DNA of 64,000 nucleotides, taken from positions 1-64,000 of the forward strand of contig JABIDL010000041.1 of NCBI GenBank assembly GCA_018651745.1, given 5' to 3'. The position numbers and the translations under genes are program-made. This document shows, in pieces, positions 3,791-12,546 of the stretch. This DNA comes from Candidatus Neomarinimicrobiota bacterium (GTDB lineage: Bacteria; Fidelibacterota; Marinisomatia; Marinisomatales; TCS55). Under the pieces are notes generated by a model. That model had not been told where the DNA came from, did not search any database, and worked only from the letters and a program-made list of their open reading frames with translations. How positions within the stretch are numbered: the first letter of the stretch is position 1; the number at the start of each line of letters is the position of its first letter.

Positions 3791-4627
3791 ATGAAGTACA
3801 AAATTCCCCGAATAATACATCTATGTATTTATTTTATTCTGTTAGCGCCTGGATTTTCACACCACATTAATGAGGACAAAGCGTTTAATCTGGTTAAAGA
3901 TTTATTTAAACACTCATCTGTTCCAAAATCTTTTCTGGACAGCGCCTTTTCTAATCCGGATATAAAAATACACGAAGAAATCGTTGAAAAGTTCAACCAC
4001 CCATGGGAGAAAAAAGATTTTCCATCATACCGAAAATTGTTTGTTACAGAGTCGAGAATTCAAAAAGGAACAGAATTTTATTTAAAGAACAAGCCTATTT
4101 TATATGCAGTGTCAGATAGTTTTTCTGTAGATCCCTTTCTCATACTAAGCATTGCCGGCATAGAAAGCAATTATGGGGTACATCATGCACAGTATTCTGT
4201 TTTTAATGCGCTTTACACTATTATTCACCGCCTTCCAAGAAAAGAAAAATGGGCAGCAAAAGAATTGTATCACTTCTTAAAACTATGTCATGAAAATAGT
4301 ATGGACCCTCAGGATATTTCAGGATCATATGCCGGCGCATTTGGGTTTGGGCAGTTTATTCCCTCGAGCTTTAGCATGTTTTCTGTGGATTTTGACAACG
4401 ATGGCCTGCGCCACCACTTAGAGTGGCCAGATGTTCTCGGAAGCATTGCTAATTATCTAAAAAAGAACGGGTATAAAGGAACAGATTTTTCAAAAGATAA
4501 GCCGATTTGGAAATCGGTTTGGGCTTACAATCATTCTGAAAATTATGTACGGGCGGTGTTAGACCTAAGAGATGAATTGAAGAAAAACATTGAAAACACC
4601 CAACAAGCGATCGAGGGGAAAGATTAG
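3791..4627 (+). CDS. lytic murein transglycosylase, MltB-like (GH103)
   Basis: Periplasmic enzyme that cleaves peptidoglycan glycan strands to give anhydromuramyl ends. There is an N-terminal signal peptide (hydrophobic residues about 8-22, no lipobox Cys). The SLT/MltB core includes SIAGIESNYGV with catalytic Glu125, and the conserved block GAFGFGQFIPSSF near 185-197, followed by a DVLGSIANYL segment typical of MltB. At 278 residues it is shorter than E. coli MltB (361) but holds the catalytic domain. It overlaps the convergent phosphatase gene by four bases. Divergent from the DMT transporter, with about 54 bases between starts. Confidence 0.88.
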   Translation: MKYKIPRIIHLCIYFILLAPGFSHHINEDKAFNLVKDLFKHSSVPKSFLDSAFSNPDIKIHEEIVEKFNHPWEKKDFPSYRKLFVTESRIQKGTEFYLKNKPILYAVSDSFSVDPFLILSIAGIESNYGVHHAQYSVFNALYTIIHRLPRKEKWAAKELYHFLKLCHENSMDPQDISGSYAGAFGFGQFIPSSFSMFSVDFDNDGLRHHLEWPDVLGSIANYLKKNGYKGTDFSKDKPIWKSVWAYNHSENYVRAVLDLRDELKKNIENTQQAIEGKD

Positions 4628-5889
4628 CCGGTATATTTCACCATCAAGACGGTAATATCGTCAGATTGTTCTGCGCTACCGACGAAGGAATTAATATCGT
4701 CCAAACTCCCAGACACAATTTCAGTTGATTTTTTTCCGGCGGTTGAGCGCAGATATTCTTCCAATCTTTCATAAGAATACTCATTTCCACCGGCGTCCAT
4801 TGCTTCGTTAACTCCGTCTGTATATAAATACATAGAATCACCCTTTTCCAGTGTAATGGTTTTTACTCCAAAATCCATGTCACCCATTACACCAAGCGCA
4901 ATACCTTCCGTGCCATCCAACTGTTCATTTGTTCCATCTTCGCGCACAATATAGGGTGGATTATGTCCACCATTCGAGTAATGAACTTCCCCAGTTTTAG
5001 TGTTTAAAATTCCGTAAAAAATAGTACAAAACATGCCCTGATCATTGTCTTTGCTAAGATCGTTATTCGCCCGAAATAAAATATCAGAAGGCTCAACCCC
5101 CGGGATTGTGCTTGCTGCAACATGTGTTTTAGTAACAGCCATAAACAATGCTGCAGGCACACCTTTCCCGGAAACGTCTCCAATCACGAAACAAAGGTGC
5201 TCTTCATCTATGAGGAAAAAATCGTAGAAATCGCCTCCAACTTCTTTTGCCGGGATTATACTTGCAAATAAATCAAAATCATCTCTATCGGGGAAGGCGG
5301 GGAAATTTTTTGGTAGCATCCCCATTTGAATATCAGCTGCAAGTTTGAGCGACTCCTGAATGCGTTGTTTTTCAACAAATGCAACCAAAAGCTGTGCCCT
5401 TTGGATGGCCACCCCGGCCTGAACTGATAGTGCCTCTAATAAATTTTCATCTTGAGAACCAAAAGATTCACCATCCTTTTTATTAAGAACCTGAACCACT
5501 CCAACAAGATTGCCTTCATTATTCATCATTGGCATACAAAGTACAGACTTGGTTCGGTAATTGGTTTTTTTATCAAATTCAGGATTAAACCGATCATCAT
5601 CATAAGCATCGATTATATTGGCCGTTTTTAGAGTTTTTGCCACATCGCCGGCGATTCCTATTCCAACGGGGAATCGGATTTCTTTTTCGTCAAGCCCTTC
5701 AGCAACCTTACTCCATAACTCGTTGGTTGATTCGTCATAAATAAAAAGACTGCTCCTGTCCGCATCCATGACCTCAGTCGTTTTTTGTAGAATTATAGGC
5801 AGAAGATTATCAAGCTGCATTTCACCGCCAAGTGCCTTAGCAACTTCAAGAAGTGCATTCAAATTTCTTACTTGGTGGTTTTCGCTCAT
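4624..5889 (-). CDS. GAF-domain PP2C-type serine phosphatase (RsbU/SpoIIE family)
   Basis: Signal-input phosphatase of a partner-switching cascade, 421 residues, cytosolic. A GAF sensor domain fills about residues 12-168 (core around 112-140, SVLCMPM and LVGVVQVLNKKDG). A short helical linker (168-200) leads to the PPM/SpoIIE phosphatase domain, where the metal-binding motifs GGDFYDF (Asp220) and GDVSGKG (237-243) are intact. Its expected role is to dephosphorylate the STAS antagonist encoded just upstream, which then captures the RsbW-like kinase. It is the last gene of the minus-strand rsbW-rsbV-rsbU series (12-base gap). The ligand of the GAF domain is unknown. Confidence 0.9.
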   Translation of the reverse strand: MSENHQVRNLNALLEVAKALGGEMQLDNLLPIILQKTTEVMDADRSSLFIYDESTNELWSKVAEGLDEKEIRFPVGIGIAGDVAKTLKTANIIDAYDDDRFNPEFDKKTNYRTKSVLCMPMMNNEGNLVGVVQVLNKKDGESFGSQDENLLEALSVQAGVAIQRAQLLVAFVEKQRIQESLKLAADIQMGMLPKNFPAFPDRDDFDLFASIIPAKEVGGDFYDFFLIDEEHLCFVIGDVSGKGVPAALFMAVTKTHVAASTIPGVEPSDILFRANNDLSKDNDQGMFCTIFYGILNTKTGEVHYSNGGHNPPYIVREDGTNEQLDGTEGIALGVMGDMDFGVKTITLEKGDSMYLYTDGVNEAMDAGGNEYSYERLEEYLRSTAGKKSTEIVSGSLDDINSFVGSAEQSDDITVLMVKYTG

Positions 5890-5901
5890 TATAATCGCCT
5901 T

Positions 5902-6234
5902 TTAAGCTGCTTCTGCGCCGGTTGCTTGGTCAGATGTGATTGTGAATATGGGAGTAAATCCTGAAATGTCGAACACTTCCTTTATATGGTCACTCATTGA
6001 ACATAGCACAAAAGATCCTCCTGAAGATTTGAGTTTTTTTGCCGCCATCAGAAAAACCCTAAGCCCCGCACTTGAAATATAGTCAATCTCTTTTAAATCA
6101 ATAACAAACCTAGTTTCCCCTCGGTCCAAAACTTCTACAATTTTATCCTCGAATTCACCGGACGTGTTAGTATCAATTCTTCCCACGGGTTCTAAAATGA
6201 TGACTTCCCCCTCTTTTTTATCTCGTATTTCCAT
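5902..6234 (-). CDS. STAS-domain anti-sigma factor antagonist (RsbV/SpoIIAA-like)
   Basis: A single STAS domain of 110 residues. The phosphorylatable serine region is seen in DYISSAGLRV (51-60), with Ser54 the likely acceptor by analogy to RsbV Ser56. In this family the unphosphorylated form binds and blocks an RsbW-type kinase/anti-sigma factor. It lies between its predicted kinase (upstream) and its predicted phosphatase (downstream), 33 and 12 bases away, so the three genes very probably form one transcript. Confidence 0.92.
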   Translation of the reverse strand: MEIRDKKEGEVIILEPVGRIDTNTSGEFEDKIVEVLDRGETRFVIDLKEIDYISSAGLRVFLMAAKKLKSSGGSFVLCSMSDHIKEVFDISGFTPIFTITSDQATGAEAA

Positions 6235-6266: not shown

Positions 6267-6683
6267 TCAGATTAGTTCCTTAATCATTATAAAATGATTT
6301 TTATTTCCTTCGGTAAAATAATCAACATGTGACATAAGTTTTTTTACCAAAAACACTCCAAGCCCTCCAATTGGCTTATCATCAACCGACAGCGATGTGT
6401 CGGGATCTTCACGTTCCAACATATTGTAGGATTTTCCGTCGTCCACAATTTCTACTTTCAAATTATTTTTGTCCACGTCGAAAAGAATTTCAATAGTATG
6501 TTCACCATCATCTTCATATCCGTAATTCACAATATTGGTCAAAAGTTCGTCAAGAGCCATTTGTATATCATGGACTACTTTTTCAGAAAGTTGGTTTTCC
6601 TCCCCAAAGCGATCAAAAGATTTTCGCACATGATCAATGCGGTCTTGATCGTTTGGAATCTGTATAGATTGATGTGCGCTCAT
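6267..6683 (-). CDS. RsbW-like serine kinase / anti-sigma factor (GHKL ATPase)
   Basis: HATPase_c_2 protein of 138 residues. The N-box is seen in the segment MALDELLTNIVNYGYED (about 42-58), with Glu46 and Asn50 placed as in RsbW/SpoIIAB, and a G-box-like GGLGVFLVKKL segment lies near 106-116. It should phosphorylate the adjacent STAS protein and, when free, bind a target such as a sigma factor. No sigma factor is encoded in the window, so the output is unknown. It is the first gene of the rsbWVU series and is divergent from the repeat-protein gene at 6901. Confidence 0.88.
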   Translation of the reverse strand: MSAHQSIQIPNDQDRIDHVRKSFDRFGEENQLSEKVVHDIQMALDELLTNIVNYGYEDDGEHTIEILFDVDKNNLKVEIVDDGKSYNMLEREDPDTSLSVDDKPIGGLGVFLVKKLMSHVDYFTEGNKNHFIMIKELI

Positions 6684-6824
6684 TACCCCACAATTTATTG
6701 ATTGTTTTGATTAGGTAAAACAGGATAAAATAATTGGACAATTCGAGGGAATTCCCCAGGTAAATAATAATTGAGGGTTTGTGTTCCCCATCACATACAT
6801 GTATTTGAAAATCTTATTATTTTC

Positions 6825-6886: not shown

Positions 6887-6892
6887 AGGAGG
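6887..6892 (+). promoter_or_regulatory. strong ribosome binding site deciding the start at 6901
   Basis: A perfect AGGAGG stands eight bases before the ATG at 6901. The reading frame is open upstream to 6781, but that longer N-terminus has no such site and would place 40 extra residues before the membrane segment, so the start is set at 6901. Confidence 0.85.
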
Positions 6893-6900
6893 TCTATAAA

Positions 6901-8211
6901 ATGGCAAGTAAATTAAATGATAGTGGTAATAATAATACCAAACTGCTAGTTGGCATAGGTGTTGTCGTTGTGGCAATTGCGCTGGTAGTGATGAACTATC
7001 CTCCAGGCGAAGACGGTCTTTCCGGAACGATTGGAAAACGCCGTGCAGCGAAAGGACAGTTTAAAGAAGGAGATGCTCGTTTAGGCGAAGGGGCCAGCGT
7101 CAGCCGGCTTATGCAGGACCAGGGTTTCAAAACTTTGGTAACCAGCGCAGAGTTCCAAAGCATGACGCAAAATCCAGCATTTATGAGCATGCTCTCTAGT
7201 GGAGAATTTCAGGCTTTACTTGGGAATGCTGAATTTGCAGCTTCCCTAAAATCCGGTAAGCTCAGCGAAATGGAAAAAGGCGGCGAAATGAAGGGAAAGG
7301 GAGATGAAAAATTCCCACGAAAGAAATTTGGCGCAATGTTAGGATCCAATGCATTCAATGCAATGTTAGCCTCACCTGAATTTGGAGCACTGCTCAGCAA
7401 CGCTGAGTTTGGTGCCGCGCTGAAAGCTGACGATCTGGGCAAAGCGATGAAAATCAGCGAAGAGCGTCTACCAAAAGGTAAGTTTAAAGCACTTGCAAGC
7501 GGAGCTGAGTTTGGAGCGATGTTGAAAAATGCAGACTTTGGCAAAATGGTTGAAAGTGGTGAAATGAAAAAAGCCCTGCATTCAAAAGAGTTCCGAAACC
7601 TTGCAGCACATTCCGAATTCAATGCAATGTTAGCCTCACCTGAATTTGGCGCACTGCTTAGCAATGCTGAATTTGGCGCTTCATTACGCGCCGATGGTTT
7701 AGTAAAAGCAATGAAGTCAGAGGAATTCCGCGAGAAAATGCCAAAAGGTAAATTTGGCGCCATGTTAGGTAATGCAGAATTTGGAGCCATGTTAGGCAAT
7801 GCAGAATTCAACGCAATGTTAGCTTCGCCTGAATTTGGCGCAATGTTAGGCAATGCTGAATTTGGCGCTTCATTACGCGCCGATGGTTTAGTAAAAGCAA
7901 TGAAGTCAGAGGAATTCCGCGAGAAAATGCCAAAAGGTAAATTTGGCGCCATGCTAAACGGATCTGAATTTAATGCTCTCGCCAGCAGCGCAGCATTTGC
8001 ATCCATGTTAGGCAATGCAGAATTTAATGCCATGTTAGGCAATGCAGAATTTGCATCCATGCTTGGAAACGCTGAATTTAACGCAATGCTAGCTTCGCCT
8101 GAATTTGGCGCAATGTTAGGCAATGCTGAATTTGGCGCAATGTTAGGCAATGCTGAATTTAATGCAATGATGGCAAATCCAGAATTTGGTTCAATGCTTC
8201 TTAAATATTAA
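6901..8211 (+). CDS. membrane-anchored protein of tandem nine-residue repeats (unknown function)
   Basis: I do not recognise this 436-residue protein. A short polar N-terminus and one hydrophobic helix (about 15-32) are followed by a basic linker (46-55). From about residue 80 almost to the end it consists of some 37 units of nine residues, consensus GNAEFxAML. Position 2 is Asn or Ser, position 3 Ala or Pro, then Glu and Phe; Met/Leu close the unit. Asn/Ser-Ala/Pro-Glu is a typical helix start, so each unit may be one short helix plus a turn. Charged variants (KSEEFREKM, PKGKFGAML, RADGLVKAM) recur in fixed order. The register breaks only near residues 126-139 and 189-195. Divergent from rsbW; followed by a strong terminator, so probably a single-gene transcript. 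Confidence 0.85.
   Translation: MASKLNDSGNNNTKLLVGIGVVVVAIALVVMNYPPGEDGLSGTIGKRRAAKGQFKEGDARLGEGASVSRLMQDQGFKTLVTSAEFQSMTQNPAFMSMLSSGEFQALLGNAEFAASLKSGKLSEMEKGGEMKGKGDEKFPRKKFGAMLGSNAFNAMLASPEFGALLSNAEFGAALKADDLGKAMKISEERLPKGKFKALASGAEFGAMLKNADFGKMVESGEMKKALHSKEFRNLAAHSEFNAMLASPEFGALLSNAEFGASLRADGLVKAMKSEEFREKMPKGKFGAMLGNAEFGAMLGNAEFNAMLASPEFGAMLGNAEFGASLRADGLVKAMKSEEFREKMPKGKFGAMLNGSEFNALASSAAFASMLGNAEFNAMLGNAEFASMLGNAEFNAMLASPEFGAMLGNAEFGAMLGNAEFNAMMANPEFGSMLLKY
7661..7764 (+). repeat. 104-bp direct repeat, copy 1
   Basis: Identical base for base to 7850-7953, at an offset of 189 bases, which is seven nine-residue units. The identity includes synonymous positions, so the copies arose by recent duplication or are kept alike by gene conversion. 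Confidence 0.9.
7850..7953 (+). repeat. 104-bp direct repeat, copy 2
   Basis: Second copy of the block at 7661-7764, in frame inside the nine-residue-repeat gene. Flanking units are similar but already diverged at the DNA level. Confidence 0.9.
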
Positions 8212-8323: not shown

Positions 8324-8360
8324 AAGGAGGATATGGGAAACCATATCCTCCTTTTTTTTT
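8324..8360 (+). terminator. strong intrinsic terminator after the repeat-protein gene
   Basis: A 13-bp perfect stem (8324-8336 with 8341-8353) closes a GAAA tetraloop and runs into a series of T ending at 8360. It lies about 110 bases after the stop codon at 8211 and about 60 bases before the next gene, isolating the two. Confidence 0.93.
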
Positions 8361-8423
8361 ATACAGTTTGACTTTACAGCCGGCGCCTGTCGAAATTCTA
8401 TTAATTATTGGGAGACCTAAACA

Positions 8424-11400
8424 ATGTGTAATTCAAAATACTATCTTTTTGCCACCACACTTATCGTAAGCGCTGCTTTCTTAACGCCGGGGAGAGCCCA
8501 GCTAAAATCCTTAGAAACCGAGGATGTCCAAATTATTTATACAAGCCCACTGCATAAATATCTTATACCCCAACTTGTAAGCACATTCACCAATTCTTAC
8601 AATTTCCATAGGAATATGTTTGATTATACACCCACAGAGAATATTACAATCCTAATGCAGGATTTTGGGGACTTTGGTCATGGTGGCGCAGATGCACTTC
8701 CAACAAACAACGTCAATATCGGGATTGGACCCTTTAATTATGTTTATGAAACAATGCCCGCCAGCGAACGAATGAATTGGCTTATGCATCATGAGTTGAC
8801 GCATATTGTGACCACAGATATGCCAAACAATGTTGATAGGTTTTGGCGCGGGCTTTTTCGCGGAAAGGTATCCACCTCCATTGACGATCCTATTTCGATT
8901 ATGTATAGTTACCTCACCAATCCAAGAAGGTATGCCCCCCGCTGGTATCACGAAGGCTCGGCAGTTTTTATGGAATCTTGGATGGCAAATACAAAAGGAC
9001 GCGTTTTTGGTGCTTACGATGAAATGGTCTTCCGAACTCGCGTAAGAGCTAATGCTACAATATATGATATTGTAGGTCTTGAATCTGAAGGAAAAACAAC
9101 CGATTTCCAAATTGGTGTCAATTCCTATCTTTATGGCACGCGATTTATTTGCTATGCCGCAAATACCTATGGTCCGGAAAAATTTGTGGAGTGGGTTTCA
9201 AGAAAAGATGGCAGTAAAGCATATTTTACATCCCAGTTTAAAAAAGTATTTGGGCTAAGCATTGACAAAGCATGGTCTGATTGGATTCAATGGGAGCGCG
9301 AATTCCAAACAAACAATCTTGAACTCGTTAGACAATATCCCACCACACAATTTCGTCCGGTTTCAAATATGTCGCTGGGGTCTGTCTCAAAAGGGTTTTA
9401 TGATGATAAAAATGGAAAAATTTATGTAGGCGTTTTTTATCCCGCCGAAGTGTCGCACATAGCTGCAATTGATGTAAAAACCGGCGCAATGGAAAAAGTG
9501 GCAGACATCCACGGCGCTGCAATCTTTTTTGTAATGTCTGCGGCGTTCGATCCGGATAAAGGCGATTTGTTTTTCACCATGGATAACGGACATTGGCGCG
9601 ATCTTTGGATGGTAAATGTTTATACCAAGGAATCTAAAAAGTTGTACGAAGATTTGAGAACCGGGCATTTAGCATTTAACCAAGCAGATAATTCACTATG
9701 GGGAATTCGGAATGCAGATGGATACTCAACGGTCATCCGACTAGAAGCGCCGTACGAGGAATTCAGCTCAATTAAAACGTTTGGTTACGGTGGCGCGTTT
9801 GAGGAATACGATGCTCACACAATGGATATTTCGCCAGACGGGGAAACCCTATCTATTGTAAAGGTGGATATGAATGGCATTCACCGGCTTACGCATGTTT
9901 CCATGGAAAGCGCGATGTCCGGAGATTTTACAGGAAAACCAATCTTTGATTTTGATACAAGCGCACCCGAGAACTTTGTGTTCTCAAAAGATGGACGATA
10001 CCAATACGGATCCTCCTATTATTCAGGTGTTTCAAATATTTTTCGCTATGATGCGGCGGAAGACACAGTTGTTGCACTAAGCAATGCAGAAACCGGATTC
10101 TTCAACCCAATCCCAGTTTCCGATGATTCTTTAATTGTGCTACGATATACAAGCGACGGTTTTCGCCCGGTGATGATTCCTAATCAGGAAGTGGAAGATG
10201 TAAGCGCCGTTAATTTTCTTGGTTGGGATATTTATGACAAACATCCCGTTGTTCAGACATGGGCGACAAAAGCCCCCACCAATCTTGATCTTGAAAAAAT
10301 TATAATTAAAGAAGGCGACTATAAACCAATATCAACCATGGGTCTTTCATCTATATATCCAGTTGTGCAGGCGTACCAAGACCCTAAATATCCTGCGTAT
10401 GGAGTTCGCATGAATTTTATGTCCACCCTTGGGCTGAATAAAGCCGACCTTACTATTACATATTCCCCACAAGATTCCATTCCAGATGACCAGAAAATTC
10501 ATGCGATTGGAACATTTAAATTGAATGTGATGACCGGTCCGCTGGCAGGTTCGTGGACATTTAGTGGCGGGAAAGACGCTTCAGATTTTTATGATCTTTT
10601 TGGTCCAACCATCAGCAGCCGAAAGGGGTCCTTTATCCGCACCAGTTTTTCAAAATCGATCAATAGCCATTTACCATTAAACATGGCGACAAGCATTGCA
10701 GTTTATGGTGGGTTTGAAGAGTTACCCGACTATCAGGACCAGCCGGCAGCATATGATAAATTTCTTTCAGGAAGTCTATCGTTTAGTCATTATAAAGCAC
10801 GCCGAACACTTGGGTCTATAGATCAGGAAAAAGGCAGGATTGCATCTTTCTCGTTATCTGGATCTTATCTTCCCCACTCTGCGGATACTCCTAAATTATA
10901 CACGAAAGGAACGCTAAATGCCTCGTATGGTGCACTGCTTCCACTTGTAGATCACCTCCCTTTATGGATTCGCGCTTCCGCAGGGAACTCCATGAGAATT
11001 TTAGGCGATAAAACAATTGCAGACGAAAACGCTTCATTCGGCTATTATTATTTTGGAGGCTTTGGCAATAACTGGATTGATTATCAAGGCATTAAACGTT
11101 ACCGGCAATATTATACATTTCCGGGCACAGGAATTACGAGCCTTGGTGGAACAAATTTTGTTAAAGTATTGGGTGAATTAATTCTACCCGCTCTCAGGTT
11201 CCGCCATGTGGGCACACCTTTTTTCTACCTGAACTGGGCTCGACTGTCACTATTCTCATCTGTTTTGCAAGGCGGAATTTTTGCAGGGAATCTGCTTAGC
11301 TATGAAAGCTCAACTTTTGGCGAGGAAATTACACGAGCTACAAACTTGGGCGCTCAAATTGATTTCCGACTTGTACTTTTTTCTTATATGAGATCAACAC

Positions 11401-11498
11401 TATCTGTGGGGTATGCTATTGCAAAGGCAGAGCTTAAAAACGGCTCAACTTTAGAGTATAGTCCGGAGCTGATGATATCCCTTCAGATATTGGATTGA
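8424..11498 (+). CDS. outer-membrane metallopeptidase-like protein with TolB-type propeller and beta-barrel
   Basis: Large exported protein of 1024 residues. A signal peptide spans about 1-25. Residues 30-280 resemble the peptidase MA-like gluzincin domain: zinc motif HELTH (123-127), and a downstream HEGSAVF block with Glu177 as likely third ligand. About 300-640 holds repeated strands in TolB/WD40-like propeller style (for example ISPDGETLSIV). About 680-1024 is rich in alternating aromatic strands and ends in a beta-strand, like an Omp85/surface-antigen barrel. This suggests an outer-membrane-anchored protease facing either side. The next gene starts one base after its stop (TGA, then GTG), so the two are translationally coupled. 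Confidence 0.8.
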   Translation: MCNSKYYLFATTLIVSAAFLTPGRAQLKSLETEDVQIIYTSPLHKYLIPQLVSTFTNSYNFHRNMFDYTPTENITILMQDFGDFGHGGADALPTNNVNIGIGPFNYVYETMPASERMNWLMHHELTHIVTTDMPNNVDRFWRGLFRGKVSTSIDDPISIMYSYLTNPRRYAPRWYHEGSAVFMESWMANTKGRVFGAYDEMVFRTRVRANATIYDIVGLESEGKTTDFQIGVNSYLYGTRFICYAANTYGPEKFVEWVSRKDGSKAYFTSQFKKVFGLSIDKAWSDWIQWEREFQTNNLELVRQYPTTQFRPVSNMSLGSVSKGFYDDKNGKIYVGVFYPAEVSHIAAIDVKTGAMEKVADIHGAAIFFVMSAAFDPDKGDLFFTMDNGHWRDLWMVNVYTKESKKLYEDLRTGHLAFNQADNSLWGIRNADGYSTVIRLEAPYEEFSSIKTFGYGGAFEEYDAHTMDISPDGETLSIVKVDMNGIHRLTHVSMESAMSGDFTGKPIFDFDTSAPENFVFSKDGRYQYGSSYYSGVSNIFRYDAAEDTVVALSNAETGFFNPIPVSDDSLIVLRYTSDGFRPVMIPNQEVEDVSAVNFLGWDIYDKHPVVQTWATKAPTNLDLEKIIIKEGDYKPISTMGLSSIYPVVQAYQDPKYPAYGVRMNFMSTLGLNKADLTITYSPQDSIPDDQKIHAIGTFKLNVMTGPLAGSWTFSGGKDASDFYDLFGPTISSRKGSFIRTSFSKSINSHLPLNMATSIAVYGGFEELPDYQDQPAAYDKFLSGSLSFSHYKARRTLGSIDQEKGRIASFSLSGSYLPHSADTPKLYTKGTLNASYGALLPLVDHLPLWIRASAGNSMRILGDKTIADENASFGYYYFGGFGNNWIDYQGIKRYRQYYTFPGTGITSLGGTNFVKVLGELILPALRFRHVGTPFFYLNWARLSLFSSVLQGGIFAGNLLSYESSTFGEEITRATNLGAQIDFRLVLFSYMRSTLSVGYAIAKAELKNGSTLEYSPELMISLQILD

Positions 11499-11499
11499 C

Positions 11500-12546
11500 G
11501 TGTATTTTGATCTGATTCTTAAAATAGCCTTCAGCCTTCTTCCGGCTGTAATTATGCTTCTTGTGTTCATGTTTATGGATAGCTATAAACTCATGGACAT
11601 AAAAACCGTGGTTATAGCAATTATCATTGGGTCCCTATCCGCAGTAGTATCATATTTTGTAAATGATCCCTTAGTAGCGTACCTATCGGATAAATTTGTC
11701 ATAGACATAGATACAGTCTGGACATTTTATTCTCGGTATGGCGCACCGTTTGTTGAGGAGTTTTTTAAAGGTTTCATTTTGGTTTATTTAATTCGTACAA
11801 ATAAGATTGGATTCAACATTGATGCAGCCATTTATGGATTTGGGCTGGGTGCCGGCTTTGCGATTATTGAAAATTTGTACTATGTTTATGTACTTGCCAC
11901 TGACACAAATCTAACCGTTTTTATTATTCGTGGTTTCGGAACAGCAGTGATGCACGGCGGGACGATGACTTTATTTGCAATGATTGCAAAGACAATGACA
12001 GATCGAAAGGTTTGGGGAGAGTGGGGAGGGTTTATTCCCGGGTTTCTTACGGCGGTTGTTTTTCATTCTTTTTACAACCATTTCTTTTTCAACCCGCTAA
12101 TTTTAACACTTTTGAATGTGATCACCATTCCGGTTATTTTGATGATTATTTTTAAACGCTCCGAAAAATTTCTACAGAACTGGCTTGGCGTTGGTTTTGA
12201 TTCCGATCAGGAATTATTGGATATGGTTAACCAAGGTAAAATGTCTGACACTAAAGTAGGAGAATATTTACAGTCTATTAAAGATCGCTTCCCTGGCGAA
12301 GCAGTATTTGATATGATTTGTCTTCTGAGGATACACCTTGAATTATCCATGCGCGCTAAAGGTGTGCTGATGATGAGAGAAGCCGGCGTTGATGTAGAGC
12401 CCGATGAGGATTTAAAAGACAAATTCAATGAACTTCATTTTTTGGAAGATAATATTGGAAAAACCGGTATGATGGCGCTTGGACCGTTTCTTCATCAAAG
12501 CAGTCAAGATCTTTGGCAATTGCACATGCTCGGGAAAGAAGTTTAA
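11500..12546 (+). CDS. PrsW-family intramembrane metalloprotease-like protein
   Basis: Polytopic membrane protein of 348 residues starting with GTG one base after the preceding stop. PrsW/CPBP-type motifs are visible: a paired Glu block APFVEEFFKG, then GFAIIENLYYV, then RGFGTAVMHGG and FHSFYNHF, which together supply the Glu and His residues used as metal ligands. About seven membrane helices occupy the first 225 residues; the last 120 are soluble and helical. In Bacillus, PrsW makes the first cut in an anti-sigma factor. Here the coupled neighbour is an outer-membrane protease-like protein; the substrate is unknown. Confidence 0.8.
   Translation: MYFDLILKIAFSLLPAVIMLLVFMFMDSYKLMDIKTVVIAIIIGSLSAVVSYFVNDPLVAYLSDKFVIDIDTVWTFYSRYGAPFVEEFFKGFILVYLIRTNKIGFNIDAAIYGFGLGAGFAIIENLYYVYVLATDTNLTVFIIRGFGTAVMHGGTMTLFAMIAKTMTDRKVWGEWGGFIPGFLTAVVFHSFYNHFFFNPLILTLLNVITIPVILMIIFKRSEKFLQNWLGVGFDSDQELLDMVNQGKMSDTKVGEYLQSIKDRFPGEAVFDMICLLRIHLELSMRAKGVLMMREAGVDVEPDEDLKDKFNELHFLEDNIGKTGMMALGPFLHQSSQDLWQLHMLGKEV

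Follow-up and report, generated by a model that had tools for sequence, protein, structure and literature searches.

The window, a stretch of 64,000 nucleotides from a Candidatus Neomarinimicrobiota bacterium (contig JABIDL010000041.1), encodes a membrane-anchored protein with a long array of nine-residue tandem repeats, flanked by partner-switching genes on one side and putative protease genes on the other. The features of the locus are as follows (window coordinates; evidence in parentheses):

4624..5889, minus strand: RsbU-like phosphatase with GAF and SpoIIE (PP2C) domains (domain match)
5902..6234, minus strand: STAS-domain protein of the anti-anti-sigma type (domain match)
6267..6683, minus strand: RsbW-like anti-sigma kinase (HATPase_c_2), the divergent neighbour of the repeat gene (domain match)
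6780..6795, no strand assigned: CRP/FNR-like palindrome TGTGTTCCCCATCACA (1 mismatch to TGTGA-N6-TCACA)
6887..6892, plus strand: Shine-Dalgarno sequence AGGAGG, 8 bp 5' of the ATG at 6901
6901..8211, plus strand: repeat-protein coding sequence, 436 aa (ATG and N-terminus common to relatives)
6940..6993, plus strand: sole transmembrane helix, residues 14-31 (sequence; hydrophobic stretch in 14 of 14 aligned N-termini)
7021..7038, plus strand: conserved motif SGTIGK beyond the membrane helix, residues 41-46 (all 14 aligned N-termini have GTI)
7114..8199, plus strand: array of 38 nine-residue units, residues 72-433 (autocorrelation, profile segmentation, register)
7276-7314 and 7450-7470, plus strand: array breaks, residues 126-138 and 184-190
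8324..8361, plus strand: intrinsic terminator 3' of the repeat gene, with a T run and a stem of 13 bp (folded hairpin, GGAGG/CCTCC-rich)
8424..11498, plus strand: 1024-aa protein with an apparent signal peptide and a HELTH...WYHEGSAVF zinc-peptidase motif (motif; no Pfam family)
11500..12546, plus strand: PrsW-family intramembrane protease with EExxK kept (PF13367 match)

There is no need to invoke the longer open reading frame that begins with GTG at 6781. The single membrane helix that the original prediction placed ahead of the repeats is present in the window protein, and the N-terminal module to which it belongs (membrane helix, invariant GTI and first units) is common to all relatives in the N-terminal alignment, with a putatively cytoplasmic stretch of about 8-20 residues before the helix in each. 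The charge distribution points to an N-in/C-out orientation: because the helix has a positive flank on its N-terminal side and an acidic one on its outer side, the repeat array should be periplasmic by the positive-inside rule.

Residue autocorrelation of the window protein gives 34% identity at lag 9 (z = 16.7, versus a maximum of 3.2 among 300 shuffles) and 30% at lag 18 (z = 13.5), with no other period above z = 1.5, in keeping with the original description of the repeats as unlike heptads, pentapeptides, TPR or leucine-rich repeats; the period of 7 that would mark a heptad coiled coil is absent. Profile segmentation returned 33 units (at most 16 in 200 shuffles) with a score of 527 (at most 63) and the consensus GNAEFGAML, which recovers the GNAEFxAML noted originally; one of the 33 is spurious, placed in the membrane region, and the count of 38, which bears out the original figure of about 37, combines profile-segmented units with in-register units that score poorly. 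The units occupy residues 72-125 (six), 139-183 (five) and 191-433 (27), followed by the tail LKY. The two short breaks that had been noticed, KGGEMKGKGDEKF (residues 126-138) and KISEERL (residues 184-190), are degenerate copies of a trio of charged units (xADxLxKAM, KSEEFREKM, PKGKFGAML), the same charged types that were said to recur in a fixed order; the trio is complete twice, as RADGLVKAM-KSEEFREKM-PKGKFGAML at residues 263-289 and 326-352, both being included in a DNA repeat of 189 bp.

The broader unit consensus is [GAS]-[NS]-[AP]-E-F-[GNA]-A-M-L, with Phe5 in 33 of the 38 units, mean hydropathy maximal at positions 5, 8 and 9, and all 10 prolines of residues 72-436 at unit positions 1 or 3. 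By helix-capping rules this pattern would correspond to a helix at positions 3-9, an N-cap at position 2 and a connector at position 1, and the helix-capped units of the original prediction agree with the proline, N-cap and C-cap positions.

Relatives were recovered with N-terminal alignments as queries in 13 of 245 Neomarinimicrobiota genomes, a scan of genome contigs with the full-length protein having given no match. They come from draft genomes: three in the window's genus, three in another family of its order, two in its class and the other five in two additional families. Weak matches elsewhere in the phylum (genomes G097, G098 and G048; E of 0.003-0.009) were dropped as different proteins with different neighbours. 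The array is built of ANREFANML in genome G089, of ESQEFENML blocks in G090, of alternating ANKSFAAML and ANREFAAML in G196, and of a degenerate SQDFQKxxx in G209, G211, G220 and G221, and it has a 12/6-residue period in G192 and G193 (z = 20.6 and 12.6 in G193, with none at 9). The relatives with the 6/12-residue period had been missed by the original prediction. Repeat number, of which a survey had been suggested, ranges from about 18 to 46 units across relatives; the hydrophobic content of the arrays is 42-60%, and Met content is low (1-4%) in four relatives. In the sister genomes G001 and G002 the repeat gene is duplicated in tandem; the additional copy (L013 3543-4412; L014 828-1700) is shorter and has no counterpart in the window's genome. 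The array sequences indicate that arrays are re-amplified lineage by lineage at a fixed locus.

Between units of the window protein, synonymous differences (pS 0.73) exceed nonsynonymous differences (pN 0.46), and the corresponding values are 0.86 and 0.25 in G089, 0.89 and 0.25 in G090, and 0.78 and 0.25 in G196. Phe5 is invariant in 38 of 38 units of G089 and 43 of 43 units of G090. With synonymous sites near saturation while Phe5, Met8, Leu9 and Asn/Ser2 persist, and with pN lower than pS, the array is evidently old and its unit under purifying selection, rather than a fresh product of slippage; local recent duplications are also present within it.

AlphaFold without an alignment places a seven-residue helix on nearly every unit of the full-length protein (pLDDT 42, pTM 0.23), and with 18 units plus six in-register relatives it returns 18 helices of 6-8 residues (pLDDT 55, pTM 0.44). 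One short helix per unit is plausible as the predicted secondary structure of the array, and a disordered or just transiently helical chain is possible, given the low confidence of the models. For comparison with alpha-solenoid repeats, in which stacked helical units make up a continuous superhelix, the models offer one predicted helix per unit (pTM 0.44), and Foldseek found no fold match in the PDB (best E = 8.3). Of the novel solenoid or filament on the membrane that was originally proposed, the membrane anchor is supported and the solenoid or filament is conjectural; structure prediction, the check then suggested, gave in-register helices without a confident fold.

At cutoff, the window protein falls into none of the Pfam or NCBIfam families, and it has no PDB match; no published description of a nine-residue repeat of this kind was found in open-access papers, and the phage, plasmid and viral collections held nothing credible (a plasmid match of 21% identity, E 0.007, was set aside). 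The earlier impression that no named family has this repeat is borne out in the Pfam, NCBIfam, PDB and open-access literature on which novelty was judged: no characterised repeat family matched the window protein credibly, and the relatives are conserved. The Pfam matches of relatives (Med31, MgtE_N, Cas5d, SapC) were compared with permuted and reversed arrays, which reach 6e-7, above the cutoffs of other families; those to Cas5d, SapC and MgtE_N do not rise above these controls. Med31/SOH1 (PF05669) matches exceed the cutoff in G089 (5e-11), G090 (2e-7) and G196 (2e-10), with none in the window protein, and the strongest two beat the best (6e-7) of seven controls made by permutation or reversal. 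Med31 belongs to the eukaryotic Mediator, has about 95 residues and lacks tandem nonapeptides, and its PDB profile match has E = 1.2; the resemblance is taken as a convergent short-helix pattern. The MgtE N domain (PF03448), a superhelix of short helices, is matched in the 12-period lineage only (G193, 2.4e-6), and the CBS and transporter parts of MgtE are absent from the repeat proteins. The RTX beta-roll shares the nine-residue period, but the array lacks GGxGxDxUx, is predicted to be helical and has no Pfam RTX match.

The nearest working analogue appears to be the STI1/DP domain of ubiquilin and Sti1/HOP (PF17830), which the array resembles in its predicted short helices, tight turns, prolines at turns and Met-rich hydrophobic face; we do not assign the repeat protein to STI1, Med31 or MgtE_N. 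In ubiquilin, STI1 comprises six helices with proline turns of about 90 degrees and a Met-rich groove that binds hydrophobic segments (PMC13083928). PF17830 is matched in G196 at E = 0.0035 and 17.7 bits, versus a curated cutoff of 29.1, and not in the window protein, and the array differs from STI1/DP in its strict nine-residue period repeated 38 times, its membrane anchor, its bacterial host and its lack of ubiquilin-type domains. A strictly STI1-like Met-groove model is weakened by the low Met content of four relatives.

The peptidase, PrsW and STAS/phosphatase genes adjoin the repeat gene in every relative with a covering contig, in several families and orders, and the gene order in relatives is repeat gene, secreted protein of about 980-1024 aa, and PrsW protein of about 340 aa. 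HExxH and WYHEGxAVF are invariant in 12 of 12 orthologues of the large protein, which has no Pfam or NCBIfam match; its orthologues of at least 42% identity are found only in repeat-protein genomes or in G210, G134 and G088, where the peptidase contigs end short of the expected repeat gene. The window's PrsW protein matches PF13367 at E = 4e-20 with the motif EEFFK, below the NCBIfam equivalog cutoff, and EExxK is kept in 8 of 8 PrsW proteins checked. An RsbW-like kinase gene lies next to the repeat gene in all lineages except G209, G211, G220 and G221, at whose loci none was seen, and no sigma factor gene was seen in the repeat-gene loci. This conserved protease and partner-switching neighbourhood had escaped the original prediction. 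By eye, the C-terminal part of the large protein looks beta-rich, possibly an outer-membrane barrel. In G209, G211 and G221 (L062, L063 and L065) the phosphatase is larger (563-652 aa), appears sensor-like and is preceded by a substrate-binding protein of the NMT1/THI5 type, with an ABC ATPase also before the phosphatase in G209 and G211 (both named by eye).

The CRP/FNR-like palindrome lies 98-105 bp 5' of the ATG in five genomes (98-103 bp in the four relatives, exact in three; intergenic, including L049 and L050), a near-constant distance that suggests a cAMP- or redox-type (CRP/FNR-type) regulator. A search of six genomes for exact TGTGA-N6-TCACA sites gave just 4-8 in each. Folding locus by locus gave terminator hairpins at 8 loci, whose stems differ in sequence yet pair (-21 to -27 kcal/mol). 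With so strong a terminator after it, and with the near-constant CRP-like site before it, the repeat gene probably forms its own regulated transcript.

Membrane-tethered short helices faced with Phe, Met and Leu, beside two envelope proteases, are best fitted by a scaffold or binder of hydrophobic segments. The protein would be anchored in the inner membrane with its long array facing the periplasm, a succession of capped amphipathic helices of seven residues, each unit with an Asn/Ser N-cap at position 2, a helix at 3-9, a Gly/Ala/Pro connector at 1, and one hydrophobic face formed by Phe5, Met8 and Leu9. The units may pack on each other or on hydrophobic client segments. The array would most likely serve the two neighbouring proteases, PrsW and the secreted HExxH peptidase, as a multivalent scaffold or as a binder of hydrophobic segments, and the partner-switching proteins and the CRP/FNR-type regulator would set output or expression. 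The architecture is fairly well supported; we infer the function of the array, along with its periplasmic side, packing, client binding and partnership with the proteases. We prefer this reading tentatively, as somewhat short of an even chance: the 6/12-residue period of G192 and G193 is hard to square with a single strict fold, and the protease neighbours may be just co-regulated with the array gene.

The alternatives are ranked here in descending order. The range of about 18 to 46 units, the re-amplification in each lineage and the change of period, as if length or bulk outweighed sequence, would also suit a spacer or extended rod (ruler) across the periplasm, or a filament, in which the unit sequence serves helix formation only; this is unlikely, since the strong conservation of Phe5, Met8 and Leu9 at near-saturated synonymous distance suggests more, and no filament homologue was found. 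A mostly disordered or condensate-forming low-complexity chain with transient helices would account for the low AlphaFold confidence and for the shift to a 6/12 period with the neighbourhood intact in G192 and G193, but the capping pattern of the unit, its strictly placed prolines and a hydrophobic content high for disorder make it a rather poor candidate.

That PrsW and the peptidase are adjacent in all lineages, that RsbW and STAS genes are also neighbours, and that the invariant GTI just outside the membrane may serve for cleavage or docking, raise the prospect of an RsiW-like substrate of regulated proteolysis that releases a signal. This is improbable: unlike an RsiW-type anti-sigma factor, the repeat proteins have no cytoplasmic anti-sigma domain, for which the stretch before the membrane helix is too short in all relatives, and their loci showed no sigma factor gene. 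Very improbable, finally, is a polyprotein from which the neighbouring peptidase excises near-identical nonapeptides, as signal peptides or similar; many near-identical units, lineage-specific homogenisation and a dedicated adjacent peptidase speak for it, whereas the units vary widely within one array, no constant cleavage site lies between them, and helix capping would be needless.

The repeat is best classed as a new family among the helical tandem repeats, an established category, and the protein, given its constant company of two proteases and a regulatory switch, is probably a working part of an undescribed cell-envelope system. The fuller claim, that a new helical tandem-repeat class with a nine-residue, one-helix unit binds clients as the scaffold of a so far undescribed system of envelope proteolysis under partner-switching control, with its repeat period replaced (9 to 6/12) at a fixed locus, is a doubtful one. 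Units known from helical tandem-repeat proteins measure about 12 to 50 residues; nine would be unusually short, and a structure would extend the range of repeat proteins and provide a simple scaffold for design. The locus is a testable entry into envelope regulation of Marinimicrobia, a major uncultured and little-known marine group, and a natural case in which the repeat period was replaced while the anchor and gene neighbours stayed, the 6/12-residue-period orthologues (ADRAALxNRM; L060 4231-5478 and L061 4103-5434) lying at the same locus as the nine-residue arrays.
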